Shown here piece after piece: positions 17,777 through 57,414 of a DNA stretch of 64,000 bases (its first letter is position 1; each line of letters begins with the position of its first letter). A model generated the notes under the pieces. The model did not search any database and was not told the DNA's origin. It saw nothing but the letters and a program-made list of their open reading frames with translations. The stretch comes from a virus: positions 1 through 64,000 of IMG/VR virus record IMGVR_UViG_3300017963_000192; one strand, given 5' to 3'. The position numbers and the translations under genes were made by a program.

Positions 17777-17795
17777 TTATTCCTCCAATAAATGT

Positions 17796-17868
17796 GACTC
17801 CACTGAGAATCGAACTCAGTACCTCGACCTTAAAAGGGTCTTGCTGCTACCAATTGAGCTATGGAGTC
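17796..17868 (-). tRNA. tRNA-Lys(UUU), copy 1
   Basis: 73 nt. Acceptor GACTCCA/TGGAGTC (7 bp), T-arm CTGAG-TTCGATT-CTCAG, anticodon loop CTTTTAA. Core sequence is identical to copy 2 (18776-18848); only the acceptor arms differ. Confidence 0.9.
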
Positions 17869-17875
17869 ATTATGT

Positions 17876-17949
17876 GCCAAGGGGCAGAATCGAACTGCCG
17901 ACACACGGATTTTCAGTCCGCTGCTCTACCGAAATTGAGCTACCTTGAC
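17876..17949 (-). tRNA. tRNA-Phe(GAA)
   Basis: 74 nt. Acceptor GTCAAGG/CCTTGGC, D-stem GCTC/GAGC, anticodon loop CTGAAAA, T-arm GGCAG-TTCGATT-CTGCC. Seven bases upstream of tRNA-Lys copy 1, so co-transcribed. Confidence 0.92.
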
Positions 17950-17955
17950 ATAATG

Positions 17956-18453
17956 TTATCTTTCAAATTCTCCTATTATTTCATATTTATCCTTATCTAT
18001 TTTTATATTTTTCCTATAAAAGCGATAAAACATTCCATGTAGAAAATAAGGTCTAAGTTTGTGTTCTGTTATATGCCTGTCTATGGGACGCTTATTATTT
18101 TCATCATAATCTGTATGCGTTCCTACGTACTTTCTAAAGTATTCGTGTTGTCTATCAAGTTGTTTTAAAAGTTTTTCTGGTATTCTATACACTTTATAAA
18201 ACCACTGGTATTCGTAATCAAAGAGTTCACCCTCTTCAAACTCCCATCCTTCTCTTTCGCAAACTTGTCTCCACTCTTCTTTCTCTTCCTTATTAAACGG
18301 TATTTCATGTACAATTTCTTTATCAAATGCAAAATAAACTCTCTCTCCTTCCCACAACATAATTCCTGTTAATGGACCATCCCAGTAAGCTAGATGGTAC
18401 AGAAATCTCGTTTGTCCATTAGTTTCTTTTGTTAGTTCATCAAGAGTTTTCAT
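17956..18453 (-). CDS. hypothetical protein
   Basis: 165 residues, rich in aromatic and charged residues (YHLAYWDGPLTGIMLWEGERVYF, DYEYQWFYKVYRIPEKLL). The beta-strand-rich N-terminal half suggests a small globular enzyme or binding protein. It lies between tRNA-Phe and tRNA-Lys copy 2 and is a phage-type accessory gene of the tRNA region. No family recognised. Confidence 0.6.
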   Translation of the reverse strand: MKTLDELTKETNGQTRFLYHLAYWDGPLTGIMLWEGERVYFAFDKEIVHEIPFNKEEKEEWRQVCEREGWEFEEGELFDYEYQWFYKVYRIPEKLLKQLDRQHEYFRKYVGTHTDYDENNKRPIDRHITEHKLRPYFLHGMFYRFYRKNIKIDKDKYEIIGEFER

Positions 18454-18456
18454 TTT

Positions 18457-18756
18457 TTATCCTGCATATTTCATTTTATCTCTGTATTCCTCTAAAATAG
18501 AAATTAACTTTTCTACCCCTTTTTTCTTTAGTACAAAAGCATCCGAATACGGGGAACCATAGGTCAGTATTCTCCATATTTGCCTTAACCTATTTCTTAA
18601 ACTTGGTTTACCAGTTATATTCCCATATTGATAAACTGAAAAATACAATAGAGATGGTTTCCCTTCTATTTCGAAATCCTCATCAAGAACTATTTGAATA
18701 AGTTCTGTATGACAATCACATTCAATATATTTTGGTTCAAACATTTGACAACTCAT
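18457..18756 (-). CDS. hypothetical protein
   Basis: 99 residues with an N-terminal Cys/His patch (MSCQMFEPKYIECDCHTELI), then a beta-rich middle and a C-terminal helix. It has an AGGAGG ribosome binding site and ends 3 nt before the downstream start. Family unknown. Confidence 0.6.
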   Translation of the reverse strand: MSCQMFEPKYIECDCHTELIQIVLDEDFEIEGKPSLLYFSVYQYGNITGKPSLRNRLRQIWRILTYGSPYSDAFVLKKKGVEKLISILEEYRDKMKYAG

Positions 18757-18775
18757 ATCTATAACCTCCTTATGT

Positions 18776-18848
18776 GCGTCCTCTGAGAATCGAACTCAGT
18801 ACCTCGACCTTAAAAGGGTCTTGCTGCTACCAATTGAGCTATGGACGC
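18776..18848 (-). tRNA. tRNA-Lys(UUU), copy 2
   Basis: 73 nt. Same core as copy 1 from the D-arm to the T-stem; acceptor GCGTCCA pairs with AGGACGC at six of seven positions. Recent duplication with a newly matched acceptor stem. Confidence 0.85.
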
Positions 18849-19069
18849 TTTAATAATCTAATAGAAAAACTTAATTCAAACTTGATAAGTTTTAATTTCA
18901 AGACCCATCCTAAAGTTTTAGATTCTATCCAAGTTTCAATACCGATATTAAATATAAAATCTTTATAGATTCCAGCAAATAATAAAATGTGTTCTCCATC
19001 AATTAAAGGATTTCTTGTTTTGTATGTAAAGAATCTCTTACTTTTACATTTGTACCATATGTCATTCAT
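18839..19069 (-). CDS. hypothetical protein, 3' end inside tRNA-Lys copy 2
   Basis: 76 residues with a GGAGA ribosome binding site. Basic N-terminus, hydrophobic middle (EHILLFAGIYKDFIFNIGI) and beta-rich C-terminus. Its last codons overlap the 5' end of the tRNA, so the tRNA insertion may have redefined its end. Family unknown. Confidence 0.5.
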   Translation of the reverse strand: MNDIWYKCKSKRFFTYKTRNPLIDGEHILLFAGIYKDFIFNIGIETWIESKTLGWVLKLKLIKFELSFSIRLLKRP

Positions 19070-19084
19070 ATTAATCTCCTATTT

Positions 19085-19156
19085 CCGCTCGACCGGAATC
19101 GAACCGATTGCCTCTCAGTTATCAGCCGAGTGCTCTACCTATTGAGCTACGAGCGG
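19085..19156 (-). tRNA. tRNA-Ile(GAU)
   Basis: 72 nt. Acceptor CCGCTCG/CGAGCGG (perfect), D-stem GCTC/GAGC, anticodon loop CTGATAA, T-arm ATCGG-TTCGATT-CCGGT. Confidence 0.92.
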
Positions 19157-19324
19157 TTAAGCAACATATTTTATATTTTTTCTCAAATCATAAAATATTG
19201 CAAACTGTAACCATCTAAAACAACCTATTTTCCACCCGTATGTTTTGAGTTTAGGAATTACTTCAAATCTGTATAACAGTATCCCTGGTACAGTATTCTT
19301 TGCTAATCCAATATTAATTATCAT
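19157..19324 (-). CDS. hypothetical small protein
   Basis: 55 residues starting MIINIGLAKN after a GGAGG ribosome binding site; a longer frame would read into the upstream tRNA. Basic and aromatic (YGWKIGCFRWLQFAIFYDLR). Abuts tRNA-Ile. Confidence 0.5.
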   Translation of the reverse strand: MIINIGLAKNTVPGILLYRFEVIPKLKTYGWKIGCFRWLQFAIFYDLRKNIKYVA

Positions 19325-19336
19325 AGTTCCTCCTTT

Positions 19337-19411
19337 GGCGAGAGTGGGAGTCGAACCCACAGATTACAGAGTTTTTGGGACTCCAGCCTTTTCCAATTTA
19401 GCCATCTCGCC
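19337..19411 (-). tRNA. tRNA, isotype uncertain (loop CCCAAAA)
   Basis: 75 nt. Perfect acceptor GGCGAGA/TCTCGCC and T-arm GTGGG-TTCGACT-CCCAC. The anticodon stem GGAGT/ACTCT closes a loop CCCAAAA, so positions 34-36 read CAA (Leu) with C instead of the universal U at 33. It lacks the long variable arm of tRNA-Leu. A shifted loop would give CCA (Trp). Decoding role therefore unclear. Confidence 0.6.
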
Positions 19412-19769
19412 TTAATTTGTTTCTTTTTGCTTGGTATGATCTATGACCTTCTCTACAAAGATCACATCTACATCCATGAGCATATTTGCTATGTGTTCCA
19501 TGATTTTCTTTTTTAAGTAAATTATGATGATAGTCACTATGACATTTTCTACACCATACAACACATTTTTTTAATTCTTTTTCTCTTCTCTCTTCAGACC
19601 AAGACCATATTTTATGATCTTCCTTTTCCTTTGGATTTTTATGATGTAATTCCAACTTTTCTATCGAACCACATTTTTCACATACTTTGTCTTTAAAAAA
19701 TTCTAATCTTCTTTTCCTTACCCATAATTTAGCATATTCTCTTTGTTTGTTAACATCCTTATAAGACAT
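19398..19769 (-). CDS. free-standing HNH endonuclease
   Basis: 123 residues. CEKCGSIEKLELHHKNPKE and KCVVWCRKCHSDYHH form the HNH/zinc core (about residues 32-85), followed by a second Cys pair (HGCRCDLCREGH). This is the size and shape of phage homing endonucleases. It sits between tRNA genes, a favoured niche, and its 3' end overlaps the uncertain tRNA at 19337-19411. Confidence 0.82.
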   Translation of the reverse strand: MSYKDVNKQREYAKLWVRKRRLEFFKDKVCEKCGSIEKLELHHKNPKEKEDHKIWSWSEERREKELKKCVVWCRKCHSDYHHNLLKKENHGTHSKYAHGCRCDLCREGHRSYQAKRNKLRRDG

Positions 19770-19791
19770 ACTAATACTCCTTCAATTAATT

Positions 19792-19872
19792 AGGAGCGAA
19801 GGGAGTTGAACCCTTACACCTTTCGGCATTGGAGCTTAAATCCAATGTGTCTACCAGTTCCACCACGCTCCC
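19792..19872 (-). tRNA. tRNA-Leu(UAA)
   Basis: 81 nt, type II with a variable arm of about 13 nt. Anticodon stem TTGGA/TCCAA, loop TTTAAGC; T-arm AAGGG-TTCAACT-CCCTT; acceptor GGGAGCG/CGCTCCT with a G-U closing pair. Confidence 0.88.
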
Positions 19873-19878
19873 ATATGT

Positions 19879-19956
19879 GCCCCACCTCCGATTCGAACGG
19901 AGACGCTTACGCACAGGGCCTAAACCTGTTGACTAGACCAATTCGTCTAATGGGGC
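19879..19956 (-). tRNA. tRNA-Leu(UAG)
   Basis: 78 nt. Acceptor GCCCCAT/GTGGGGC, anticodon stem ACAGG/CCTGT, loop TTTAGGC, short variable arm GCGTAAGCGT, T-arm CTCCG-TTCGAAT-CGGAG. Its 5' end overlaps the last codons of the micro-gene at 19947-20063. Confidence 0.88.
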
Positions 19957-20063
19957 TTACTTAATTTTAAAAGACCTCTACATTCAGGACATTGCCAAGA
20001 ATGTACAATATCAGTCATTATTTCAAAGACCTTTAAACATTTAAAACATACAAATCTTTTCAT
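19947..20063 (-). CDS. zinc-ribbon micro-protein
   Basis: 38 residues: CFKC near the start and CPEC later, a minimal zinc ribbon, with a GGAGAGG ribosome binding site. Stop lies inside tRNA-Leu(UAG). Short but well supported by motif and ribosome binding site. Confidence 0.55.
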   Translation of the reverse strand: MKRFVCFKCLKVFEIMTDIVHSWQCPECRGLLKLSKPH

Positions 20064-20079
20064 ATACCTCTCCTTATTT

Positions 20080-20154
20080 CCCCATGACAGGATTCGAACC
20101 TGTAAAGATTTAGTCCCTCAAACTAACGCCTCTACCAGATCGGGCTACATGGGG
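20080..20154 (-). tRNA. tRNA-Leu(GAG), atypical
   Basis: 75 nt. Acceptor CCCCATG/CATGGGG (perfect), anticodon stem TTAGT/ACTAA, loop TTGAGGG, T-arm ACAGG-TTCGAAT-CCTGT. The anticodon GAG is Leu, but the variable loop has only about 6 nt, whereas bacterial tRNA-Leu normally has a long arm. Confidence 0.75.
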
Positions 20155-20160
20155 TTTTAT

Positions 20161-20553
20161 TTAATTTCTTATAACAACTTGCCTGCCAAACCATGTTTTA
20201 AGAGGGTCAAATCCTCCTTTTATTAAAGTTTCTACATAACCCTGACTTCTTCGTACTTCATCATATTCTTTTCTTTCTTGTTCTTCTCTGTCATTTAATT
20301 CTTGTTGTTCATCTTCCAATTCAACTTCTTTATATATCATATCGAGGTCCATTTCAACAATTTCATTTATTTCATAAAGTTCGGCGTGTTCAAGCTGATT
20401 ATCTCCAGTATAATATTCTTTAATAACTTTGATAAGTTCTACTTTAGCAGATTCTAGTGTTTTTGAATCCAAGTCAATAACATTAAGTCCACATCCTATT
20501 GTGTAATCACATCCTTCCGCTTCTTGAACTATGTGTGCCTTATAAACTTTCAT
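20161..20553 (-). CDS. hypothetical acidic protein
   Basis: 130 residues. The N-terminal domain (KVYKAHIVQEAEGCDYTIGCG) is alpha/beta; the middle is an acidic Glu-rich helix (EVELEDEQQELNDREEQERK). GGGGG ribosome binding site. Family unknown. Confidence 0.6.
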   Translation of the reverse strand: MKVYKAHIVQEAEGCDYTIGCGLNVIDLDSKTLESAKVELIKVIKEYYTGDNQLEHAELYEINEIVEMDLDMIYKEVELEDEQQELNDREEQERKEYDEVRRSQGYVETLIKGGFDPLKTWFGRQVVIRN

Positions 20554-20554
20554 T

Positions 20555-20710
20555 TTATTTATCCCCCTTTCTATTCTCTCTTAACTCTATGCAAATAGAG
20601 CTATTACACTCTTCTCCAAAATTAACTTTGCAATCGCATACGCTACATCTCCAACCCTTAATATATTCATTTATTTCGAAAAATTCTAAATCTACACCTG
20701 TAGCTTTCAT
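20555..20710 (-). CDS. cysteine-rich micro-protein
   Basis: 51 residues with CSVCDCKV and later CNSSIC, giving a likely zinc site. GGAAG ribosome binding site; stop 1 nt before the next gene's start. Confidence 0.5.
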   Translation of the reverse strand: MKATGVDLEFFEINEYIKGWRCSVCDCKVNFGEECNSSICIELRENRKGDK

Positions 20711-20732
20711 CTCTTACTTCCTTCAAATATAT

Positions 20733-20783
20733 TTAATGACCTTCTAATGCCAATCTAATTAAATCCCCTTTAACTGTTTTCAT
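20733..20783 (-). pseudogene. possible remnant of a macro-domain gene
   Basis: A 16-codon frame (MKTVKGDLIRLALEGH) with a strong GGAAGG ribosome binding site. The sequence matches the start of phage macro-domain (ADP-ribose binding) proteins, which continue with an FDVIAHGCN-type motif; here a stop follows at once. Best read as a gene truncated after its first strand; it may also be chance. Confidence 0.35.
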
Positions 20784-20793
20784 TATACCTTCC

Positions 20794-21081
20794 TTATGGT
20801 TGAATCACTTCATCTTCTTTCAACTCTTTAATATCTTTATCGAATTCTCCATTAGCAAACTTTTGAAGCACTTCAAGATTATCAAGAACCGCTTTAACTT
20901 TATTCTTGCTGAGATTAAATCCACCTCTATAGAAATTCCCTTTAATCTTTACCATTGGAACTCCAGAGCCAAGTTTAGGAAGACCTTCCTTATCTTTTGG
21001 GACAAATTTGTAGAAGTGTTCGATGGTACTTGGTATTACTTCTTCGCCAGTTTCATCTTTTTCTAATTTAACTTTCTTCAT
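20794..21081 (-). CDS. hypothetical protein
   Basis: 95 residues from the start at 21081 (GGAGA ribosome binding site). Contains MVKIKGNFYRGGFNLSKNKV and an acidic C-terminal helix, resembling small phage proteins placed next to tail or assembly genes. A longer frame upstream would be Lys-rich artefact from the neighbouring gene. Family unknown. Confidence 0.55.
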   Translation of the reverse strand: MKKVKLEKDETGEEVIPSTIEHFYKFVPKDKEGLPKLGSGVPMVKIKGNFYRGGFNLSKNKVKAVLDNLEVLQKFANGEFDKDIKELKEDEVIQP

Positions 21082-21082
21082 T

Positions 21083-21229
21083 TCAATCTCCTTTTTTAAT
21101 TTTTTCTTTAAATTTTTCCAGTCTTTCTTTACTCTTTTTTTTAGCTTCTTCGCTTCTTTCTTTAAGAAGACCTTTCTTTGTAACATTAGATAGTATATAA
21201 TCTTGGATATCTATTTTATCTTTCTTCAT
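21083..21229 (-). CDS. charged hypothetical micro-protein
   Basis: 48 residues, mainly a Lys/Glu-rich helix (KKGLLKERSEEAKKKSKERL). Start at 21229 has an AAGGAG site; a longer frame would run through tRNA-Asp. Stop overlaps the next ribosome binding site. Confidence 0.5.
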   Translation of the reverse strand: MKKDKIDIQDYILSNVTKKGLLKERSEEAKKKSKERLEKFKEKIKKGD

Positions 21230-21252
21230 CTTAATCTCCTTAATTTTAATGC

Positions 21253-21324
21253 GGGGCTGACGAGTTTTGATCTCGCTACCTCTTGCGTGACAGGCAAGCA
21301 CTCTCCCAATTGAGCTACAGCCAC
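21253..21324 (-). tRNA. tRNA-Asp(GUC), atypical T-loop
   Basis: 72 nt. D-stem GCTC/GAGT, anticodon stem CTTGC/GCAAG, loop CTGTCAC. The acceptor GTGGCTG pairs with CAGCCCC except at position 2. The T-loop is ATCAAAA instead of TTCRANN, which is unusual. A perfect partner strand GGGGCTG lies 23 nt upstream (21341-21347), perhaps the original 5' end. Confidence 0.75.
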
Positions 21325-21360
21325 CATAAAAGTTATACCACAGCCCCATTATAAATTAGA

Positions 21361-21672
21361 TTATCTTTCATCTTTTTCCAAACCCAAGCATTGCTTTAAG
21401 TAAGCTGCTAAATCTGCATCTTCTTCATTAGCCTCTTCTTTGTATTCTTCTAGTAGTTCTATAATTCTTTCTTTTAATGATTGGAATTTGAATTCTTTCT
21501 TTTTGCCTGGTTCTAAATGAACATTATACCAGTTATCCCTCATTTTTGTAGCTTGGTCAAACGCATCTAAAGCATTTAATAGATACTCTGCTAAAATGTG
21601 GTCTGGTGTGTTACTGCCATTCTCTGCACTTGAAATATTAATTGCTTCCTTAATTTTCTCTCTTAAATCCAT
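21361..21672 (-). CDS. conserved phage protein (SNTPDHILAEYL family)
   Basis: 103 residues from the start at 21672 (GGGAGG ribosome binding site). AENGSNTPDHILAEYL followed by LDAFDQATKMRDNWY is a conserved signature of a small helical protein found in many phages and bacteria, function unknown to me. C-terminal half is a charged helix. Confidence 0.65.
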   Translation of the reverse strand: MDLREKIKEAINISSAENGSNTPDHILAEYLLNALDAFDQATKMRDNWYNVHLEPGKKKEFKFQSLKERIIELLEEYKEEANEEDADLAAYLKQCLGLEKDER

Positions 21673-21683
21673 ACATACCTCCC

Positions 21684-21839
21684 TTACTCCTTGTTCTTTT
21701 TTATAAATTTTATACATTCTTGAAAACCTGCAACAAAGTATGATTGTTCAGTTGCAGTCATATTTAATTTATCACTTATCTTTATTGCAATGATTCCAGC
21801 TTCTTCTATATTTGGTAATAAATTATCTAACGTATCCAT
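21684..21839 (-). CDS. hypothetical micro-protein
   Basis: 51 residues, helical (NLLPNIEEAGIIAIKISDKL). Its 3' end forms a 24-nt sequence that is repeated at 22180-22203, including the ribosome binding site of the gene that follows it. Confidence 0.5.
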   Translation of the reverse strand: MDTLDNLLPNIEEAGIIAIKISDKLNMTATEQSYFVAGFQECIKFIKKNKE

Positions 21840-21915
21840 TTATCTTTACTCCTTTTGTGTATTGATATCCTTCATTTCATTTCTCTTTATAAGTTATTTT
21901 ATTTAAATATATCTT

Positions 21916-22476
21916 TTAATATTTAAATTTATACCTCTCATATTTATTAAAATCACAATAATATGCATCACCATCTTCCCATACCCACGTTTTTAGATGA
22001 TTACATTGCCCTTCCCCTTTTCTTACGATGCAACTCGTAGGACCAAGTATATTTAAGCAGAAATCTACTCCCATTATCACATCATATAAAGGGCAATAGG
22101 TAGGATGGGCTGATTTAGCATTTTCACTTGTTATCATAACAATTCTATTTATTTTACCAGTACCTTTACAATTAAGCATCTCCCTTACTCCTTGTTCTTT
22201 TTTTATCTGGTCTTGTAACCAAAAATAGAGCTTATCTATGGTGAACTTTTCATTATAGAACGGAAGTGTTACTTCCCAATCAATCTTCTTTTCTGAAAGA
22301 TATTCAATCATATATCCAACAAGCATCCTTTCATCCAGTTCAATCTCCCCATAACTCCCCATTCCAGCTACAATAGATATCCCTTCTTCTGACAGTTCTA
22401 TTTGTTTGTATCCTTTAGTTTCTTCTCCATATATGGTGTTGTTGTTTTCTCTCATCCAATTCCAAAATTCTTTCAT
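21916..22476 (-). CDS. hypothetical protein, probably two fused genes
   Basis: 186 residues. The first 98 are a compact alpha/beta domain; the rest (MLNCKGTGKINRIVMITSEN...) is a Cys-rich domain (CPLYDV, CLNILGPTSC, CNHL, YYCDFN) likely to bind zinc. The join is encoded by a 24-nt repeat that at 21679-21702 is the end of one gene plus the ribosome binding site of the next. So the second half may also be started separately at the internal ATG (22182). No family recognised. Confidence 0.55.
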   Translation of the reverse strand: MKEFWNWMRENNNTIYGEETKGYKQIELSEEGISIVAGMGSYGEIELDERMLVGYMIEYLSEKKIDWEVTLPFYNEKFTIDKLYFWLQDQIKKEQGVREMLNCKGTGKINRIVMITSENAKSAHPTYCPLYDVIMGVDFCLNILGPTSCIVRKGEGQCNHLKTWVWEDGDAYYCDFNKYERYKFKY

Positions 22477-22507
22477 ACTCCCCCTCTACCGACAAACATA
22501 ATTATTT

Positions 22508-22545
22508 GAACTAACATAGCCTAAAGGCTATGGATTCCTGATCTG
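22508..22545 (+). repeat. IS200/IS605-type end hairpin, copy A
   Basis: GAACTA, then a 7-bp hairpin CATAGCC-TAAA-GGCTATG and GGATTCCTGATC. The same order (GAACTA, stem ending GCCTAAAGGC, GGATTYCT) occurs at 24331-24368 on the other strand, and resembles right-end hairpins of IS1341/TnpB elements. It lies in the 142-bp gap 22477-22618, which has another perfect hairpin (AAACTGT/ACAGTTT, 22575-22591). No transposase is nearby. Confidence 0.45.
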
Positions 22546-22618
22546 AGCTTATTACATCTACACTCATATCTCTCAAACTGTTTCACAGTTTCGCTTATTC
22601 TCCATAAGTTAAGTGAAA

Positions 22619-23293
22619 TTACTCGCTTAATTCTTCTATGCTATAAATTTCCATATCTTCATATTTATCAGGCTTCAACCCAGAAGATGTTAAAGCGTTC
22701 CATAAAGCTTCTGCTTCAATTTCTAATTCTTTTCTTGATGTACTTTCACTCTCAAAAATAAATCTGTATTCTTCTTGAGGTTCATCAACACGCATCAGTT
22801 CTTCAACTTCATCGTCTATTTTATAGCCCTTTCTCTCCAGCATTTCTGCTAAATCAGAAAGTTTACTAAAAAATTGTTTCATCGTTCCCGCAGTTTTCGT
22901 TACTTGTTCAGAGGTTAGCCCTAGTTCTTTTGCAATTTCTATTATTCTATTTCTATAAGGCTTGTATATTTCGTAGGCTTTTTTATATCTCTTTATCTTA
23001 TCTCTTAATTCTGTGTTTTCTTTAGAGAAATTGTCTATTATCTCGTTCTTTTCTTTTAATAACTCTTTGTATTTCTCTAATCTTTTCTTGCTTTTTAATT
23101 TACTCTCTTTATAACTTTCTTCTTTTATTTCTTCTATTTGTTTATAATGATTATCACAAATCTCTTTTATTTTATTTTCATAATATTCTCTTAACTCATC
23201 TTCTTTTTCTTTATAAATCTTCTCAACTTTTGTTTTTTGAGCACTTAAAATCTTATCAAGTTTTTCTTTAGTCATCCGATAAGTTTTCGACAT
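22619..23293 (-). CDS. coiled-coil protein
   Basis: 224 residues. Residues about 10-110 are a continuous Lys/Glu coiled coil (EKIYKEKEDELREYYENKI...), followed by a helical region and a C-terminal globular part (EEYRFIFESESTSRKELEIE). It has its own promoter (23325-23354) and GGAGA ribosome binding site. Could be a structural tether or a scaffold; no specific family. Confidence 0.65.
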   Translation of the reverse strand: MSKTYRMTKEKLDKILSAQKTKVEKIYKEKEDELREYYENKIKEICDNHYKQIEEIKEESYKESKLKSKKRLEKYKELLKEKNEIIDNFSKENTELRDKIKRYKKAYEIYKPYRNRIIEIAKELGLTSEQVTKTAGTMKQFFSKLSDLAEMLERKGYKIDDEVEELMRVDEPQEEYRFIFESESTSRKELEIEAEALWNALTSSGLKPDKYEDMEIYSIEELSE

Positions 23294-23324
23294 ATTCTTA
23301 TCTCCTTAATATAACATTAATAAT

Positions 23325-23354
23325 TATATAAAAATATGTCTCATTTAAAGTCAA
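23325..23354 (-). promoter_or_regulatory. sigma70-like promoter
   Basis: Minus strand TTGACT (23349-23354), 18-nt spacer, TATATA (23325-23330), 32 nt ahead of the coiled-coil gene's start and directly downstream of tRNA-Met. Confidence 0.6.
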
Positions 23355-23369
23355 TAAAAAAATACAATT

Positions 23370-23439
23370 TGCGGGTGACAGAATTGAACTGTCCTGGGCG
23401 GCTTATGAGACCGTTGAGTAACCACTACTCTAACCCGCA
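23370..23439 (-). tRNA. tRNA-Met (CAU)
   Basis: 70 nt. Acceptor TGCGGGT/ACCCGCA (perfect), loop CTCATAA, T-arm GACAG-TTCAATT-CTGTC. The anticodon CAU could be elongator Met or, if lysidine-modified, Ile(AUA); the paired position 1-72 argues against an initiator. Confidence 0.85.
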
Positions 23440-23442
23440 ATG

Positions 23443-23720
23443 TGTCAGTTTCTAATAGTGAGGATTCATCGGGTAGCTAATCCCTCCACCACACGTTCGG
23501 CTTCACTGACAAGCTCGGTTGCACAGAGGAGTCCTGTTTAGGACACTGGTGTCCGTCCTCTCTTTACCTATAAAGGGTTAATTTAAAAGTTTTTGATATC
23601 GCTGTGCCAACGATAAAAGAGTTATATAGTACCCTATTTCTCTTGAATATTCAATGACTCTAGTTGTCTCAGTTCCTTTCGGTCACTGTTTAGAATATTC
23701 TGCTATATAACCCAAGATGA
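23443..23720 (-). ncRNA. candidate structured RNA, class unknown
   Basis: 278 nt between tRNA-Met and the tRNA-like element with no gene. Minus-strand reading shows many nested stems: GTTATATAG/CTATATAAC enclosing GAATATTC/GAATATTC and two small hairpins (one with a GAAA loop), TATCG/CGATA, AGAGGA/TCCTCT around GGACA-CCAG-TGTCC, GGATT/AATCC, and a long-range TGTCAGT/ACTGACA. Size and tRNA context recall large phage RNAs such as GOLLD or ROOL, but I see no match to those, to RNase P, tmRNA or group I introns. Confidence 0.45.
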
Positions 23721-23721
23721 A

Positions 23722-23770
23722 GAGGCGGAAAGGATCGAAAACCCATTGTACTGCCATTGTACTACGCCTC
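23722..23770 (-). tRNA. tRNA-like element without anticodon arm
   Basis: 49 nt. Acceptor GAGGCGT/CCGCCTC (6 bp), D-stem GTAC/GTAC with AATGGCA loop, then directly a T-arm with TTTTCGAT. The anticodon arm and variable loop are absent. Either a deletion remnant of a Trp/Gln-like phage tRNA or a tRNA mimic. It overlaps the last bases of the gene at 23762-23953. Confidence 0.5.
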
Positions 23771-23953
23771 TATATTATTTAATTTCTCAATAATTTCCTT
23801 TTTGTTTTCTACAATTACTTGTGATAATTTTAATATCCCATAAAAACCTAATCTGTCTAAATCATTATGGTAATTTCTATAAAGCTTGTCAAGAAATTTA
23901 GCGAATTCTTTGTCTTTATCGCTAAAGAAATACTCCCAATTTTGTTTACTCAT
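23762..23953 (-). CDS. hypothetical small protein
   Basis: 63 residues, helical and charged with aromatic start (NWEYFFSDKDKEFAKFLDKLY). GGGGG ribosome binding site. Its stop lies within the tRNA-like element. Family unknown. Confidence 0.55.
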   Translation of the reverse strand: MSKQNWEYFFSDKDKEFAKFLDKLYRNYHNDLDRLGFYGILKLSQVIVENKKEIIEKLNNIEA

Positions 23954-23968
23954 AAAAACCCCCTATTT

Positions 23969-24040
23969 GACGCTAGGGGGAGTTGAACCCGCCATTACAG
24001 AGTTGAAAGCCCTGTGGCCTAACCATTAGCCGATAGCGCC
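23969..24040 (-). tRNA. tRNA-Glu(UUC)
   Basis: 72 nt. Acceptor GGCGCTA/TAGCGTC, D-arm GGCT/GGCC, loop CTTTCAA, T-arm GCGGG-TTCAACT-CCCCC. Six nt from tRNA-Ala. Confidence 0.9.
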
Positions 24041-24046
24041 TTATGT

Positions 24047-24117
24047 GGAGCCGAGGGGAATCGAACCCTCGTCTTTTTGCTTGCAAAGCAAACGCCTTCC
24101 CAGTTGGCTACGACCCC
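24047..24117 (-). tRNA. tRNA-Ala(UGC)
   Basis: 71 nt. Acceptor GGGGTCG/CGGCTCC, anticodon stem TTTGC/GCAAA, loop TTTGCAA, T-arm GAGGG-TTCGATT-CCCCT. Confidence 0.9.
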
Positions 24118-24119
24118 AT

Positions 24120-24148
24120 AAATAATGTTATTGTTGAATTTAAGTCAA
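24120..24148 (-). promoter_or_regulatory. sigma70-like promoter for tRNA-Ala/Glu
   Basis: Minus strand TTGACT (24143-24148), 17-nt spacer, TTATTT (24120-24125), immediately ahead of tRNA-Ala. The -10 is weak. Confidence 0.45.
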
Positions 24149-24179
24149 TGAATTTTTTATAATTATTAATAAAAAATGT

Positions 24180-24263
24180 AGGTCAGGAGGGATTCGAACC
24201 CCCATCGGTTTTACCCTACACTTCATTAGCAGTGAAGCCTCTTACCAGTTAGAGTACCTTTCC
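24180..24263 (-). tRNA. tRNA-Ser(GCU), mismatched acceptor
   Basis: 84 nt, type II. Anticodon stem CTTCA/TGAAG, loop CTGCTAA, variable arm of about 16 nt, T-arm GGGGG-TTCGAAT-CCCTC. The 5' acceptor GGAAAGG and the 3' strand CTGACCT pair at only three or four positions, so the gene may be decayed or recombinant. Confidence 0.65.
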
Positions 24264-24311: not shown

Positions 24312-24330
24312 TGTGATTTACATTTAACCT

Positions 24331-24368
24331 GTTCAAGAAATCCCCTGCCTTTAGGCGGGGGTAGTTCA
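24331..24368 (-). repeat. IS200/IS605-type end hairpin, copy B
   Basis: Minus strand: GTGAACTA, then hairpin CCCCCGCC-TAAA-GGCAGGGG (one mismatch), then ATTTCTTGAAC. This is the typical form of the right-end hairpin of IS1341/TnpB elements and of the 3' part of their guide RNA scaffold. No tnpA or tnpB is present. Compare copy A at 22508-22545. Confidence 0.5.
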
Positions 24369-24381
24369 CTTATTATTAATT

Positions 24382-25347: not shown

Positions 25348-25878
25348 TTAAGGATATTCTGATAGTATTTCTTTTAATTCTTTAATAGTTTGATCAGCAG
25401 ATTTATGTAAAATTCCAGTCCCGCCAGACTCTTTCCAGGCATTGATGTTTTTATCTCTATCATCTATTAGGATGGTATTTTTATTTTTTATAAAATCTTC
25501 TTTTTTATTAGAGAAATTTACTTTAATATCTCCTATTTCTCTTCTTGCCCACGCTTTTTTATCTTCTTTACAATTCTTAACAGAATTTGCGGGTGTTGTT
25601 AATAATTCTACATCATAATCTTTTAAAAAATTCCATAATTTTTTACCATCTGGCATCCAATCCATGTTCAACCAATAATGGTCAGTTTCTTTATTTATGG
25701 TTTTCCATAGTGCTGGTTCGCCTTTCTTTTTAGAGTATTCTCTTGGATTTTCATAGCCTAAATCCATAAAAGCTTTTTCGAAATCGGTAAGCACTCCGTC
25801 CATATCCACGTAAATTTTTCGTCTCGTATCCGAGACTTTGATTAAATCATTAATAGTTTTCATATTTCTAAAGTTCAT
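25348..25878 (-). CDS. HAD 5'(3')-nucleotidase-like protein with shared leader
   Basis: 176 residues. The leader MNFRNMKTINDLIKVS (residues 1-16) is shared with the next five genes and lies outside the enzyme fold, which starts at KIYVDMDGVLTDFEKAF (HAD motif I, DxDG, about residue 21). Later motifs: ELLTTPA (motif II-like Thr), KKAWARR (Lys) and ILIDDRDKNI (motif III/IV acidic pair). Relatives dephosphorylate deoxynucleoside monophosphates or similar small phosphates. The leader suggests the enzyme is delivered to a particular compartment or to the virion (inference). Confidence 0.8.
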   Translation of the reverse strand: MNFRNMKTINDLIKVSDTRRKIYVDMDGVLTDFEKAFMDLGYENPREYSKKKGEPALWKTINKETDHYWLNMDWMPDGKKLWNFLKDYDVELLTTPANSVKNCKEDKKAWARREIGDIKVNFSNKKEDFIKNKNTILIDDRDKNINAWKESGGTGILHKSADQTIKELKEILSEYP

Positions 25879-25886
25879 ATTGCATC

Positions 25887-26198
25887 CTAATGAGCAGTCT
25901 CTGTTTTAATAATATAATTTCTTGTATCATACATATCTTCATCATCATTATACAAAGGATGAATTATATCATTATATTTAAGTTCTTCTTCAATAACATC
26001 GGACGGTTTTATAAATGATTGAAGTTCTGATCCGTATGACCTATCCTCATTTCTTAATTCGTGATGTAAAGATTTCCATGTGTATTCAAGAGAACCGCCT
26101 TCATCTATAAGCTCATTTTTATTATATAATCTATATATGTTATCGCTATAAGCTTTTTTAATTAATTTATCAATATTATTTATTGATATAAAATTCAT
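25887..26198 (-). CDS. hypothetical protein with shared leader
   Basis: 103 residues. Leader MNFISINNIDKLIKKA, then an alpha/beta stretch (NIYRLYNKNELIDEGGSLEY) and an acidic C-terminal part. No enzyme motifs recognised. Eight nt upstream of the HAD gene, co-transcribed. Confidence 0.65.
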   Translation of the reverse strand: MNFISINNIDKLIKKAYSDNIYRLYNKNELIDEGGSLEYTWKSLHHELRNEDRSYGSELQSFIKPSDVIEEELKYNDIIHPLYNDDEDMYDTRNYIIKTETAH

Positions 26199-26199
26199 A

Positions 26200-26901
26200 T
26201 TAATCCTCTTCTATATAATACTCTGGATTTTCAACATCCCTTTTTTCTAATTTATGATCAAAAGTAGTATAGTATGGTTTAACTTCTTTTTCAAAAGGTA
26301 ATTCAATTTCACCGATTAAGTTCAAATATTTATCTAAAACTTTATTTTTAATTTCTCTTATCTCATTAGGAGTCATATCGTAAGTTCTAATAAAGGGTTC
26401 TCCGTATTCTTGTTCATAAGCCCATTCAAAGAGTTTATCTATATCTTGATATTTGAAATATATATCCATCCAACCTTTAGGATATTCTTCAACTTTACTA
26501 TTGTTAACAACACCCCCGAAGTATTCAATTAGGTAAATATAAAAAAATCTATTGGGGTCAAGTGAATCTGATTCTCTGCTTATAATATAATGAATAATTT
26601 CTTCTTCGTTTTCTCCCGCTTCTGATTTAAAAGCTTCAATTTCACTCTTAAATGCTTTAACAACTTCTGCATTTATCATAGATTCTGTAATATCGTCTTC
26701 TTTTGTTAAGCCGTACTGCGTTTTTAACATAAGAGGTGTCATACCCTTAGTATAGTAATCTTTCCAGGCATTTTTGAAATCGTTTTTGAATTTTTCATTA
26801 TTTAGTAACGATTCTATAGCGTTATTGAAATTAGAGATAGTTATTTTTTTATTACTCTTTTTTAATAATTCATTTATATTAATTATTTTTCTAAAATTCA
26901 T
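26200..26901 (-). CDS. hypothetical protein with shared leader
   Basis: 233 residues from ATG 26901 (TAATG overlap with the previous gene, GGGGAG ribosome binding site). A TTG 12 nt further up would add MGRI and is unlikely. Leader MNFRKIININELLKKS, then an acidic, mostly helical protein with aromatic patches (WKDYYTKGMTPLMLKTQYGL, WAYEQEYGEPFIRTYDM). Function unknown. Confidence 0.65.
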   Translation of the reverse strand: MNFRKIININELLKKSNKKITISNFNNAIESLLNNEKFKNDFKNAWKDYYTKGMTPLMLKTQYGLTKEDDITESMINAEVVKAFKSEIEAFKSEAGENEEEIIHYIISRESDSLDPNRFFYIYLIEYFGGVVNNSKVEEYPKGWMDIYFKYQDIDKLFEWAYEQEYGEPFIRTYDMTPNEIREIKNKVLDKYLNLIGEIELPFEKEVKPYYTTFDHKLEKRDVENPEYYIEED

Positions 26902-28613
26902 TATTCTCCCCAAATCTCATTAAGGATTTCATATATTAAATAAATTTGATCATCGTTAAATTTCCATCTTACATTTACGTTTTTATCTGCCCATTCCATT
27001 GGAGTATTTGTACCTTTTTCTTCACTCATAGCACACCAATCGGTACAATTATGTAAAAAAATTCCTGATGTGATTGCAAAGTTATGATGAACGTCAACTG
27101 TCATATCAAAAACATCTTTTTTTATGTCTTGTTTTTTTATGCTTATTATTTTATGGTTAACTGTATTATTTTTATGGGTTTTCATATGATTTCCTAAACC
27201 ACCAGAGTTTCCGCAAATTTTACCACAAACAGAACATTCTATTGGCGTAGTGGCGTTTTTAATAGATGTTTTTCTCATTTTTTCTTTGTATTTAGGGTTT
27301 TTCCAAATTTCTGAATTTCGGTTGGATTGTTTTTGTCTCCAATCAGGTATTACTTCGTGAAAACTTTTTATATGATTGGACAATGCTCCAACATTTCCAA
27401 AAATTTTACCACAATAATTACATTTTTTACTTTTTTTATTTAATTCAATCATATTTTTAGACGCTGTTTTTTTGTGTTTTTTTGATTTGTTGTAATTAGT
27501 TAAATTTTTTGGTCCAGTTGTTTTACCTATAATTCCAACTCTTGTTTTTTGTTTTTTTCTAAATGCAGGATTTTCCCATAATTTTTTAAGAACAGTACTT
27601 CCTACTTTTTTTTGTTTTTCAGAATGAATTTTGTAGTGGTTTTCTTTAGTCATTATTTCTAAATTAGAGGGGTCATTGTTTTTTTTATTATTTTCATCCA
27701 TAAAATTTTTATGGTGACAAACTAATTGGTTTGTTCCAAATTTTTTTGTATAATATTGATAACCACCAAAATACTCATCTACCATCATTCTATGTGTTAA
27801 CTTCCATTTATTGACATTTAAGTTGTATATTTGTTCATAACCATCTTTATCTTTCCTATATAGAGGCATAAGACTGTCTCCAACAACTAAATCTTTAACT
27901 TCTTTATAAGTACCATCTCTCATCATAAATTTGTGATTATCAGTACAATCTACATATAAATCGTTATCTAGCGTGATTCTATATACCGTTGCATTTTTTT
28001 TAGTTTTTCTTACACTATGCCCTTTTCCAGGTACTATTTTACCTTCTGTTGTACAAGAATATACCCAAAATTCTTTTTCATTTACTAAATCTTTTATTTG
28101 TGTCTCTTTTCCATTTAATAAGGAAATTTTAGTATCTCCTGTTAAACACATTTCAGCTATATCTAAATCTTCCATAGCAGTAGCATCTATAATCTCATCT
28201 GGTATTTCATCTCTGTTTTCTCTATTAATTTTACCTTTATTCTTACAATGAAATTCAGGGTGATGTCTATTATTATTAACGTGATGTTCTGTAGCATTGT
28301 TCATTAATTCTCTAACATCATCTGAAATATCAAAAGTGACGCCATCGTCTTTACACTTATAATCCCATGTTACTAAAATATAAGGTTCAAGTTCTGGATC
28401 TTTATATTTGCTTTGGTCGTGATCTTCCCCTCTTTCGATTATACCCTCAAATCTATTACCAAATCTATTGTGAATTCTTTTACAGTATTTCTTTGTTAAG
28501 TCAATATGGTTTTTAGTTCTTTTATCAAAGAAATCTTTCATACCTTGAGTAATATTAAGTCCCATTGCTTGTCTAATCAATTCGTTTATGCTATCTGCTA
28601 ATTTAAAATTCAT
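26901..28613 (-). CDS. DUF5662-like protein with leader and an HNH intein
   Basis: 570 residues before splicing, 203 after. Leader MNFKLADSINELIRQA, then a DUF5662-type helical protein: GEDHDQSKYKDPELEPYI, NNRHHPEFHCKN, EDLDIAEM-(intein)-CTDWCAMSEEKGTNTPMEW. The His/Asp pattern (HDQSK, HHPE, CDWxAMS) is typical of this family, possibly HD-like metal binding; function unknown. The intein occupies residues 156-522 at the most conserved block, as expected for inteins. Ends TAATG with the next gene. Confidence 0.85.
   Translation of the reverse strand: MNFKLADSINELIRQAMGLNITQGMKDFFDKRTKNHIDLTKKYCKRIHNRFGNRFEGIIERGEDHDQSKYKDPELEPYILVTWDYKCKDDGVTFDISDDVRELMNNATEHHVNNNRHHPEFHCKNKGKINRENRDEIPDEIIDATAMEDLDIAEMCLTGDTKISLLNGKETQIKDLVNEKEFWVYSCTTEGKIVPGKGHSVRKTKKNATVYRITLDNDLYVDCTDNHKFMMRDGTYKEVKDLVVGDSLMPLYRKDKDGYEQIYNLNVNKWKLTHRMMVDEYFGGYQYYTKKFGTNQLVCHHKNFMDENNKKNNDPSNLEIMTKENHYKIHSEKQKKVGSTVLKKLWENPAFRKKQKTRVGIIGKTTGPKNLTNYNKSKKHKKTASKNMIELNKKSKKCNYCGKIFGNVGALSNHIKSFHEVIPDWRQKQSNRNSEIWKNPKYKEKMRKTSIKNATTPIECSVCGKICGNSGGLGNHMKTHKNNTVNHKIISIKKQDIKKDVFDMTVDVHHNFAITSGIFLHNCTDWCAMSEEKGTNTPMEWADKNVNVRWKFNDDQIYLIYEILNEIWGE
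27048..28148 (-). mobile_element. intein with HNH homing endonuclease and zinc fingers
   Basis: 367 residues. Splicing block A CLTGDTKISLLNG (Cys1), block B YRITLDNDLYVDCTDNHKF (His), block F/G VFDMTVDVHHNFAITSG...LHN, and Cys+1 of the extein. Between them an HNH nuclease (QLVCHHKNFMDE...NLEIMTKENHYKIH) and two C2H2-like fingers (CNYCGKIFGNVGALSNHIK; CSVCGKICGNSGGLGNHMK). All catalytic splicing residues are present, so it should splice and home. Confidence 0.9.
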
Positions 28614-28623
28614 CTAAAAATTC

Positions 28624-29136
28624 CTATATTTTATTAAATTTATCAAATAATCTTTTACCTTCTTCAGTTTGTGGTCCTATAATATGTATACTCGTTTTAT
28701 TTGTAATATCCATAGCAAATTGTATCATAGCTTCTCCTATACCCATATTTTGATATTCAGGATTAACCTCAATTGCATTAATACTCTCTCCCCATATTAT
28801 TAAAACGTTATGTTTTGTATATTTTGCTGTATTATAATCATCCCAAACAAACCAACCGATTATTTTATTTTCATTTAAATGTATTGTTTGTATTTTAGGT
28901 TTATTGACAAGTCTTTGCAAATAACATAATTCTCCATTAGGTAGTGTTAGTGGTCTAATATAATTATTTATTTCTTCATCTGATAATCCCCATTGCCTTT
29001 TTAATCTATTAACACTGTATTGATAATTGGGACTATCTTCGTATGTTTTTTGATTTTCTAAATATTCTTCTTCATCAAATTCTTCGGAAATTTTTCTAAA
29101 AAAACCATCTATGTTATTTACCTTTCTAAAGTTCAT
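28624..29136 (-). CDS. GNAT N-acetyltransferase-like protein with shared leader
   Basis: 170 residues. Leader MNFRKVNNIDGFFRKI, then a GNAT-type fold: KIIGWFVWDDYN, INAIEVNPEYQNMGIGEAMI (motif A with the acetyl-CoA pyrophosphate loop, QNMGIG), IHIIGPQTEEGKRLFDKF (motif B). Substrate unknown; GNATs modify proteins, antibiotics or small amines. Leader again precedes the fold. Confidence 0.75.
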   Translation of the reverse strand: MNFRKVNNIDGFFRKISEEFDEEEYLENQKTYEDSPNYQYSVNRLKRQWGLSDEEINNYIRPLTLPNGELCYLQRLVNKPKIQTIHLNENKIIGWFVWDDYNTAKYTKHNVLIIWGESINAIEVNPEYQNMGIGEAMIQFAMDITNKTSIHIIGPQTEEGKRLFDKFNKI

Positions 29137-30132
29137 TTAAAAAACTCCCATCTTTGCTAAATCTTCATCCCATTCAGTAGTGTCTTTATTAGACAATTCG
29201 TCTAAAAGAAACTTATCAACATTATAATGTTCTTCTTCAATATAGTCAAGCATACTTCCTGTTTGATGTGACGTATTTAATGCTATATTAATAGTTACAA
29301 TTTTATCTTTAAGTGATTTATTTTTTAAGTTTTTAAGTTCGTAATCTATTTCTTCTATTGTTTCTCTTGTTTCTACAATTCCTTGCTGTTCCCAATAATC
29401 AAACCACAGAGGAAAAACTCTTTTCTCATAAAAATTTTTAATCATTTCTTGTATGTCGGGGTGTTCTTTTATTATTGGATCAAGATTTTCAGAATCAAAA
29501 TACCAATATGTGTCAATATATTCTTCTAATTCTTGAGGATTATCTAGATTTAAATTTTCAAGATATTCAATATTTTCTTTTGTGTTTTTATAAGATTCTT
29601 CGTCTTCTGTTTCTTTAAAATAATCCAACTCTTCATTTAGACTTTGAATAGTATATTCTATTTCTTCTTCAAAAATATTTTTGAAATATTTTAGATTGTC
29701 TAAAAAAAATTCTTTTTTAAAATCGTGCTGATCTTTTTCTCCTATTTCATCTAAATATCTGTAGTATTCGTCTTCAACCATATTTAAAGAAAATTCTTCA
29801 TCATGTGAATCTATTAATCTACTTCTAGCCCAAGTTTCGGCAGAGAGAAGAGCGTGTGTTTCTAACCACTTATCAAAGACTTTTAATAAATCTTCTCCAA
29901 CTTTATTCAATACTTTATTAAGATTGACTTCTATTATGGAGAGTATGTTATCTTTTCTTTTTGGGTTTATACCTAAAGATTGTTCGATTTTGTATTTCTT
30001 ATATTCCCATTCATATATAGTTTCTAGATTTTCTGCCATATCTTCAGATACATCTATACCTAAATTTGATGTTTCTATAAATTTAGATAATTTAATTAAA
30101 TCAAATATGTTTTTAATACTTTTAAAATTCAT
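29137..30132 (-). CDS. hypothetical acidic protein with shared leader
   Basis: 331 residues. Leader MNFKSIKNIFDLIKLS, then a long acidic helical protein rich in Glu/Tyr/Trp with several predicted coiled segments (EEEIEYTIQSLNEELDYFKE). No catalytic motif seen. It is the first of the six leader genes on the transcript. Confidence 0.65.
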   Translation of the reverse strand: MNFKSIKNIFDLIKLSKFIETSNLGIDVSEDMAENLETIYEWEYKKYKIEQSLGINPKRKDNILSIIEVNLNKVLNKVGEDLLKVFDKWLETHALLSAETWARSRLIDSHDEEFSLNMVEDEYYRYLDEIGEKDQHDFKKEFFLDNLKYFKNIFEEEIEYTIQSLNEELDYFKETEDEESYKNTKENIEYLENLNLDNPQELEEYIDTYWYFDSENLDPIIKEHPDIQEMIKNFYEKRVFPLWFDYWEQQGIVETRETIEEIDYELKNLKNKSLKDKIVTINIALNTSHQTGSMLDYIEEEHYNVDKFLLDELSNKDTTEWDEDLAKMGVF

Positions 30133-49604: not shown

Positions 49605-51896
49605 TTAATTGTGTATAAATAAAGTCTTTGGTACTTTTGATATTGCCCCCCTTCCATAAATTTTTAACATTTCTTTTATAAATAACCAATCAGCTTCGTG
49701 AACCCTATGTTTCCATCCTATTTTACGAGCAATCGGTGTTCTTACCATAAAACAACCACAATCAATACTACCAAAAACTAAACGAGTATTTATAAGATTC
49801 CAATCCCAATAGTTATGAAGGCAGTTGCAGTACGCCCCAAGTACTTTACTATTGGTAAAAGGTAGTACCATATATTCCAAGAACTTTGGAATGTAATAAT
49901 TATCAGCACCAGTAAATACTATTAAATCACTCTTTTCAGATACTCTAGTCAATCCATAACTTCTGGGGGTATGACCAACATCGTTATATCTTTTATCTGT
50001 TTTCATTACTTTAATTTTGTTGCTGTGCTTTCTAAAATCATCTAACATTTCTTCTGTTTTTATAGACATTGGACCATCATGAATTAGTAATATTTCATAA
50101 TTAGGATACGTTTGGGAAAGAATTGAGGCTACAGCAACAGGATAACAATCATATATTGGAATTATAAAAGATACTAAACGGGATGTGTCTACAACATCAC
50201 TTTTTTTATTAGCTGATTCAAGTAATGCATTTCTCTGTTGTATGTTAGGTCTTTCTCCTCTAATTTGATTAATATTATTGCGTGTTTCATTACTTATTGC
50301 TGATATTATTTTATTATTATCCATACTTAATGCCGGATAAGAAAAAACAGGAGAAAGATTAAAATTGATATTGTAAAAAGGATCACCCTTTTTTAATATT
50401 TCAGAATGTCTTTGTAGCATATATCTCTTATCTTGTTGTTTTATTTCATTTCTTTCTCTTACTGAAATTATAGAACCTTTATTTTTACTTTCTTTGTGAG
50501 TTCCTCGACATAAAGGAGTAAACACATTATAATATCCTTTCTCGTACAATCTTAAACAAAAATCAACATCAGCAAAATCGATTATTAACTCTTTATCATT
50601 AAATTTATCAATCTCTTCATAAACACTTTTTTTAAACATCATACAAGCATCAGAAACAGAACTTACATTTTGAATATTTATGGCTCTGTTATAATATCCT
50701 GCATAAGAAGATGATTGATTTTTGTATGGGTATATAACTATTTCTGGACCTTTTACAAAATAATTTGTGTGTTGTATGGTATTATTTGGAAATAATAGTT
50801 TACCTCCAACAGCACCTACTTCTGATCTTTGAGAATGATCTAATAAACATTCAATCCAATTTTCATTGATAGGTTCGAAATCATCATGAGTTATTATTAT
50901 GTGTTCTCCTTGAGCAACGTCAACACCAGCATTTAGAAATTTCCCGTAGTTAAAACCTTCATTAGTATAAACTATTTTAGCTTTTCCACTAATTCTATTT
51001 AGCTTATTTTGAGTATCTTCAACATTGCTAACAACAATTAATTCAACATTTCTATAAGTTGATTTTATTAATATTTCTCTAATACATTTTTCTAAATTTA
51101 TTATGTTATCTTTATAAGGAATGATTATACTAACTATAGGATTGCCAATAACATCTCTTTTTAAAGAGTAGTTCCCAAAAGATTTGCCAAAGTCTACTGA
51201 ACCTCCACCATGTCTTCTTTTTAAAGCTGTTTCTATGCAACTTTTCCCTCTCTCCCATACTGCATTTTTAGAGGAATTGTCATGTGTTATAGAAGATTGA
51301 ACGATTCTCCATAGATATAAAACTTTTGAGATATGTGCTACTTTATCAGTTTTTTCAACAACTCTTAATAAGAAATCATGATCCTGTGCTCCATCATAAC
51401 CCCCTCTTAAACCTCCAGCTTGTTCATATAATTCCCTTTTTAACATTACAAAATGGCATATATAATTTTGAGATAATAGCATATCTGGAGAGAAGTCTGG
51501 TTTATAATGCACACCAGATAATTTTCCGTCCATTGACAACAAAGCCTCATCTGAATAAACCATATCAGAATTTGTTTCTCTTAAAGTTTTAACAGATAAT
51601 TCAAGGGCATCTGCGGTGAGTTCGTCATCACTATCTATAAATGCAATATATTCCCCTTTTGAAATCTCAAAAGCTCTTTGTGTAGCCTCGCCAATTCCTA
51701 CATTGGTAGGTAAATTAATTATTTTTATTTTAGGATGGTCAATTGAATTTAAGAAGTTTATAGTAGCATTGTCTGTAGAACCGTCATTTGTAATACACCA
51801 TTCCCATTCCTCATATGTCTGATTCTTTACGGATTCAAGACACATCGCTAACAAGGCTACGTTAGTGTTGTGTATTGGTGTTAAAATAGAAACCAT
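49605..51896 (-). CDS. three-domain GT2 glycosyltransferase
   Basis: 763 residues with three family-2 (GT-A) modules. Domain 1 (about 1-230): ILTPIHNTN, NDGSTDNAT, FIDSDDE, GAQDHDFLLR. Domain 2 (about 255-520): SIIIPYKDNIINLE, THDDFEPIN, IDFADVDFCLRL. Domain 3 (about 585-763): FIIPIYDCYPVA, IHDGPMSIK, FTGADNYYI. The DxD motifs needed for nucleotide-sugar binding are clear in the first two; the third has GAD. Such multi-domain enzymes build linear repeats. Central enzyme of the operon. Confidence 0.9.
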   Translation of the reverse strand: MVSILTPIHNTNVALLAMCLESVKNQTYEEWEWCITNDGSTDNATINFLNSIDHPKIKIINLPTNVGIGEATQRAFEISKGEYIAFIDSDDELTADALELSVKTLRETNSDMVYSDEALLSMDGKLSGVHYKPDFSPDMLLSQNYICHFVMLKRELYEQAGGLRGGYDGAQDHDFLLRVVEKTDKVAHISKVLYLWRIVQSSITHDNSSKNAVWERGKSCIETALKRRHGGGSVDFGKSFGNYSLKRDVIGNPIVSIIIPYKDNIINLEKCIREILIKSTYRNVELIVVSNVEDTQNKLNRISGKAKIVYTNEGFNYGKFLNAGVDVAQGEHIIITHDDFEPINENWIECLLDHSQRSEVGAVGGKLLFPNNTIQHTNYFVKGPEIVIYPYKNQSSSYAGYYNRAINIQNVSSVSDACMMFKKSVYEEIDKFNDKELIIDFADVDFCLRLYEKGYYNVFTPLCRGTHKESKNKGSIISVRERNEIKQQDKRYMLQRHSEILKKGDPFYNINFNLSPVFSYPALSMDNNKIISAISNETRNNINQIRGERPNIQQRNALLESANKKSDVVDTSRLVSFIIPIYDCYPVAVASILSQTYPNYEILLIHDGPMSIKTEEMLDDFRKHSNKIKVMKTDKRYNDVGHTPRSYGLTRVSEKSDLIVFTGADNYYIPKFLEYMVLPFTNSKVLGAYCNCLHNYWDWNLINTRLVFGSIDCGCFMVRTPIARKIGWKHRVHEADWLFIKEMLKIYGRGAISKVPKTLFIHN

Positions 51897-51898
51897 TA

Positions 51899-52333
51899 TT
51901 ATTCCTTTTTATATAAATTAATAATATCACTACAAATACCTGAACATTTTATGGTAGGAAAAGATATTCTTGATTCTTCTGGAAGAACGCATATAGATTT
52001 TTTTGTTAGACTTTTTCCTGGGAATGTCCAAATATATCCGTTTGATGTTAAGGTAACTTCATCAGTATCGTGAAAAAAACAAATCGTGTTTAATTCAAGA
52101 AGACGGTGTAACGCAATGCTGGTTTTTGCATGACACCATATCCTAGAATCTTTAAGAAAGTCTTCATCAATATCATATTCTGGTCTATCGTGTCCAAGGT
52201 AAAATGTTTTAGTATCATACCAAACATCTACCTCAACATTATATCCAATATCCAGAGCTTCTTTTATATAATCTGGATGATTTTCTCTATCAGATTTTCC
52301 GTTTATGTTTCCTCTATGGGCGATAAGTATCAT
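51899..52333 (-). CDS. GDPD/PLC-like phosphodiesterase-fold protein
   Basis: 144 residues. ILIAHRGNINGKSDRENHPD (catalytic HRG-N), then NVEVDVWYDTKTFYLGHDRP (ExD and GHD) are diagnostic of the glycerophosphodiester phosphodiesterase superfamily. It is shorter than usual (about 230), so the barrel is partial. In glycan clusters related small proteins are often present; substrate unknown. Overlaps the methyltransferase gene upstream by 20 nt. Confidence 0.7.
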   Translation of the reverse strand: MILIAHRGNINGKSDRENHPDYIKEALDIGYNVEVDVWYDTKTFYLGHDRPEYDIDEDFLKDSRIWCHAKTSIALHRLLELNTICFFHDTDEVTLTSNGYIWTFPGKSLTKKSICVLPEESRISFPTIKCSGICSDIINLYKKE

Positions 52334-53985: not shown

Positions 53986-53986
53986 A

Positions 53987-54754: not shown

Positions 54755-54758
54755 ATCA

Positions 54759-56103: not shown

Positions 56104-56104
56104 T

Positions 56105-57404: not shown

Positions 57405-57414
57405 AAACGTCCCT

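Follow-up and report, generated by a model that had tools for sequence, protein, structure and literature searches.

A shared N-terminal leader, probably a delivery tag, on otherwise unrelated proteins of a giant bacteriophage and its relatives

A giant bacterial virus and its relatives place the same 16-residue leader on the front of about 20 otherwise unrelated proteins. The leader is most likely (probability of about 0.6) a capsid-targeting propeptide that loads these proteins into the virus head and is then cut off, although this function is inferred in the absence of proteomics or demonstrated cleavage. The window analyzed here is the first 64,000 bases of a 217,703-base virus record (IMG/VR IMGVR_UViG_3300017963_000192, hereafter G000), and coordinates above 64,000 lie in the same record but outside the window. 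In all, 24 leaders or leader-like copies were tabulated, 11 in G000 and 13 in five related phages. No earlier description of this motif was found in the literature searched.

The leader and the proteins that carry it

Six adjacent minus-strand genes at 25348-30132 begin with MNF-x5-I-x2-[LF]-[ILF]-[KR], as noted in a preliminary description that read the leader as a shared address label, and more fully with MNF-x5-I-x2-L-[IL]-[KR]-x-[AS]. The gene at 25348-25878 encodes a 176 aa protein with the leader MNFRNMKTINDLIKVS (25831-25878) and a body predicted to be a 5'(3')-deoxyribonucleotidase of the HAD fold (Pfam NT5C below cut-off; phrog_2643 from residue 19; top Foldseek match in the PDB 1q92). 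The gene at 25887-26198 encodes an unknown protein of 103 aa with no family assignment and the leader MNFISINNIDKLIKKA (26151-26198). The gene at 26200-26901 encodes an unknown protein of 233 aa with the leader MNFRKIININELLKKS (26854-26901). Although this ORF was originally listed from a TTG at 26913, the leader's ATG at 26901 has its own GGGGAG ribosome site. The gene at 26901-28613 encodes a DUF5662 protein interrupted by an intein, a 570 aa precursor (PF18907 3e-19, PF14890 6e-21) with the leader MNFKLADSINELIRQA (28566-28613). The intein itself, at 27048-28127 on the minus strand, has two C2H2-type zinc-finger matches and a weak HNH match, and other intein matches occur in the record at 139723-140556 (portal ORF), 160840-163530 and 178335-181127. 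The gene at 28624-29136 encodes a GNAT acetyltransferase-like protein of 170 aa (PF00583 1e-4, phrog_1249) with the leader MNFRKVNNIDGFFRKI (29089-29136), and the gene at 29137-30132 encodes an unknown acidic helical protein of 331 aa with the leader MNFKSIKNIFDLIKLS (30085-30132), for which no relative beyond the same virus was found in IMG/VR. A BLAST comparison of the bodies found no relatedness among the six. Across the leader proteins of G000 the only exception is one 41-residue local match between the proteins starting at 30132 and 137708.

A profile built from the six leaders scores 33-36 bits on them and found held-out leaders elsewhere in the genome at 31.1, 27.9, 21.9 and 16.5 bits, against a maximum of 15.9 in 61,600 shuffled N-termini. 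The statement in the preliminary description that the leader is on no other gene in the window is true, but in the rest of the genome there are five more clear copies, at 136225 (MEFRKANNINELVRKS), 135072 (MNLKNIDGINELLKTA), 137708 (MNFRNAVDINKLLSSK), 108888 (MNFRNIKNIKNLIKIA) and 88958 (MDYIGINNLKELIKTA), and one doubtful copy at 136443. In the final profile the clear leaders score 24.6-36 bits, and the best other window of about 64,000 positions in the predicted proteins scores 12. Gene calls are longest ORFs, and 135072 and 136443 lie in frame inside longer ORFs (134548-135303 and 136237-136614), each with its own ribosome-binding site, the first following a DUF5661 domain. These could be nested starts or fused genes, comparable to the internal start of T4 gene 21. 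The helical hydrophobic moment of the leaders is high (9 of 11 between the 92nd and 99th percentile, one at the 83rd and one at the 70th). Residue 16 is Ala or Ser and not hydrophobic as the preliminary description had it.

Conservation and modularity among related phages

Searches with the major capsid protein (MCP), the protease and the tail module brought in related contigs, which are few and fragmentary. The contig G001 (252,876 bases) has leaders at 24856, 76860 (the nucleotidase), 92236 and 218723. The contigs G015 and G016 have MEFQGITSIDELIKHA, MSFQNTETIDTLIKQA, MKFAGIKSLNELLIKE, MDFIGISSIDELIKIA (on a DUF6582 body) and MYFLGISSLDYLLRFA, and diverged forms occur in the contigs G009 and G011 and at G016 18980. 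One pair in different phages (G000 135072 and G009 25319) has related bodies as well as leaders, which supports 135072 as a real start. An exact DNA pattern of the leader scanned over 2.9 million viral contigs gave 49 stretches, of which only the window's own virus and G001 held convincing leader-started ORFs, and diverged forms came only through syntenic neighbors. Leader-like segments were also seen inside proteins, at G015 8106 (residue 112), G015 8830 (residue 71) and G001 218723 (residue 353) (for example QFSKVSNIDSLIKTAEDD, 21 bits), including after the GHKNSKGE domain, so the motif may also work internally.

The leader is conserved at the protein level. At leader positions with the same residue, the same codon is used in 196 of 334 pairs, with 178 expected from codon usage, while the upstream 40 bases are 32-37% identical and the bodies 31%. 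Across the 24 leaders, position 12 is L/F in 24 of 24, position 14 is K/R in 22 of 24, and [KR]-x-[AS] at residues 14-16 occurs in 18 of 24, against 3.1% of ORF N-termini. The leader at 137708 ends LLSSKK instead.

The leader also behaves as a module that is gained and lost as a unit. The nucleotidase has the leader in G000 and G001 but begins directly at the enzyme in the contig G006 and in Atu_ph07, Phosso and Lw1, and the DUF5662 homologue of G006 likewise lacks it, leaderless homologues starting near residue 17. A hand-joined DUF5662 query, with the intein removed and the leader left off, was also used. A small Cys-rich protein of the tail module has the leader in G015, G016 and G011, while in G006, G009 and the contigs G010 and G017 it starts at or within a few residues of the body. 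In G000 and G001 it has another extension that also ends KNS or KQA at the same junction, and all five extended versions of this protein carry [KR]-x-[AS] or KRTA there. At one syntenic slot (between the orthologues of 88960 and 87012) G000 and G001 carry leader proteins whose bodies have diverged almost beyond recognition, G009 carries a leader-like protein plus a leaderless nucleotidase, and G006 a leaderless nucleotidase. The G001 counterpart of the window's cluster holds one leader gene instead of six. This looks like a changing cargo set behind a constant tag. Although the preliminary description stated that homologues with different N-termini would count against a shared label, such homologues simply lack the module, which argues for a tag, and the leader is not confined to one duplicated gene family. 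In the AlphaFold model of the nucleotidase, residues 1-17 lie outside the confidently predicted body and are disordered (leader pLDDT below 50) apart from a low-confidence helix at 9-16. That the leader is part of the enzyme fold is rejected by both this model and the leaderless homologues.

A possible route into the prohead

We suggest that during late infection the phage makes a set of cargo and core proteins (the nucleotidase, the DUF5662 protein, the acetyltransferase, several unknowns and small proteins encoded between portal and protease), each beginning with a short amphipathic helix, M[N/D/E]F-x2-I-x2-I-[D/N]-[E]-L-[I/L]-[K/R]-x-[A/S]. The helix could dock the protein on the prohead core or scaffold so that it is enclosed when the shell closes, after which the prohead protease would cut at or next to the [KR]-x-[AS] at residues 14-16 (15|16 or 16|17), freeing the mature body inside the head, from which it would be ejected with the DNA. 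Docking, cleavage, packaging and delivery are all inferred. Location is consistent with this reading, since three of the five copies outside the six-gene cluster lie in the head module (P about 0.003), between the portal (137710-142068, phrog_16240) and the head-maturation protease (133441-134325, phrog_18299), ahead of the MCP (126278-127444, phrog_2522). In T4 the order is 20 portal, 67, 68, 21 protease, 22 scaffold, 23 capsid, with the prohead-core genes 67 and 68 at this place. However, phages with orthologous heads but no detected copy (G006 and the contig G003) show that the leader is not essential to this head type, and one G001 copy (92236) is on the strand opposite the head genes.

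Sites similar to the end of the leader recur in head proteins. The C-terminal end of the protease reads PGRLLK[VI]A in nine of ten close orthologues and PGYVLKIA in the tenth, a C-terminal K[TE]AS is kept in nearly all of the putative scaffolds (assigned by position and composition only), and a floating K[VIT]A[SA] occurs in most MCP N-termini, though the MCPs of G001 and L011, close relatives, lack K-x-A. This argument is post hoc and statistically modest outside the leader itself. The [KR]-x-A site is short and common in Lys/Ala-rich proteins. In a conservation test over 49 four-way orthologue groups, only the protease stood out (4 conserved [KR]xA against 0 AxK), giving only weak support. 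The protease had no useful PDB or Pfam match, its AlphaFold model was too poor to place its site, and a scan of genome contigs with it found nothing. Another shared N-terminus, M[KR]xQ-x4-FY[KR][KR]L[AS][GA], at G009 17990, 59682 and 60274 and G006 194080, also ends [KR]-x-[AS], but it lies on genes of both strands and was not merged with this leader.

The closest documented analog is the capsid targeting sequence (CTS) of the T4 internal proteins IPI, IPII and IPIII, which targets proteins to the core and is then cut (PMC9026906). Like the leader, it is a short N-terminal peptide on unrelated proteins, removable as a unit, with phi-x2-phi-phi spacing, a small residue at the cut (inferred for the leader) and a variable cargo set. 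The leader, in contrast, has 16 rather than 10 residues, with an extra M-N-F-x2-I head, is carried by metabolic-type enzymes, and has no conserved Glu near its end, so that the T4 cleavage consensus [LI]-x-E is replaced by [KR]-x-[AS]. The T4 CTS MKTYQEFIAE|A aligns to leader residues 6-16 in the expected register (IPII/IPIII, P 0.006-0.02), which suggests analogy but does not establish homology, and there is no detectable sequence homology beyond spacing. A T4-type contig (G014, IMGVR_UViG_3300043774_001004), recognized by its sheath, tail tube, terminase and clamp loader, carries CTS-like starts (M..KTFEQFL.E) on about a dozen genes, including the same nucleotidase (MIKNFGQFLNEND) and another HAD-like protein, although most of these tags do not score in this comparison. 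The leader should not be classed as a T4 CTS, although it probably works like one, with its own motif and probably its own protease specificity. An N-terminal peptide of under 30 residues of P1 DarB is sufficient to load a protein into a head (PMC9024508), but there is no consensus among P1 Dar proteins, while one motif is shared here by about 20 bodies. The giant phages phiKZ and SPN3US cut N-terminal propeptides (two of 20-24 residues), and the SPN3US prohead protease sheds a 64-residue C-terminal propeptide of its own (PMC10052503). However, those phages belong to an unrelated lineage, their propeptides are mostly long and without a shared targeting sequence, and cleavage follows S/A-x-E (PMC10052503; PMC9026906), which the leader does not show.

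Proteins carried into the host with phage DNA act before any phage gene is expressed, but can normally be found only by virion proteomics of cultured phages. It is an evenly balanced possibility that a clade of uncultured giant phages uses this module, cut by its own prohead protease at [KR]-x-[AS], as a head-loading code independent of that of T4. If so, the leader alone would list injected proteins from sequence, here a deoxyribonucleotidase, a DUF5662 protein, an acetyltransferase and over a dozen unknown families, and short capsid-targeting propeptides would have arisen or diverged outside T4-like phages.

Alternative readings of the leader

Other destinations are less likely but not excluded. 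Copies in the tail module (88958 and its positional counterparts in G001 and G009, and the small Cys-rich protein in G015, G016 and G011) leave open that the leader addresses proteins to the neck, tail lumen or baseplate, or is a general docking peptide for one phage protein that need not be removed. Yet copies concentrate between portal and protease, docking alone does not explain the conserved [KR]-x-[AS] end at the body boundary, and enzymes as tail cargo are unusual. It is similarly unlikely that the Lys-rich amphipathic helix targets the cell membrane or a phage nucleus in the infected cell, even though the phage encodes a PhuZ-like tubulin (191615-192694, phrog_4733, E 1e-5). No leader occurs on any plus-strand (replication-side) gene, all 11 copies being on the minus strand (228 of 303 predicted genes; P 0.04), where the head and tail genes lie. 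Membrane helices do not need the exact spacing or the fixed end, and no match to phiKZ ChmA (gp54) was found in the genome, though this is a weak negative without a positive control. A secretion signal peptide does not fit by inspection of the 24 leaders, in which charged or polar residues occur every 2-3 positions and leave no uninterrupted hydrophobic core of at least 7-8 residues.

A role in partner recognition or regulated turnover in late infection without packaging, for example through a host or phage chaperone, adaptor or protease, would also suit a modular, protein-level conserved leader on accessory enzymes. It is considered doubtful because the head-module location and the similar site in protease, scaffold and MCP point to head assembly. 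Finally, the adjacency of six copies could suggest a recently duplicated 5' gene segment or translation-initiation element spread by recombination, but this is already contradicted, as synonymous positions are near saturation, upstream DNA is not conserved, and the leader persists between phages whose shared proteins are only 40-60% identical.

Elsewhere in the window, thirteen tRNA genes are interspersed with small ORFs at 17794-24263, a hairpin, ctacccccgcctaaaggcaggggatttcttgaac, lies at 24330-24380, and a block of glycosyltransferase, nucleotidyltransferase and sugar-epimerase-like genes, named from N-terminal sequence only, occupies a late-strand region at 49605-63626. The N-terminal comparison also revealed a tandem family of small paralogues starting MKIYRFKTEEE at G009 169230-172400.
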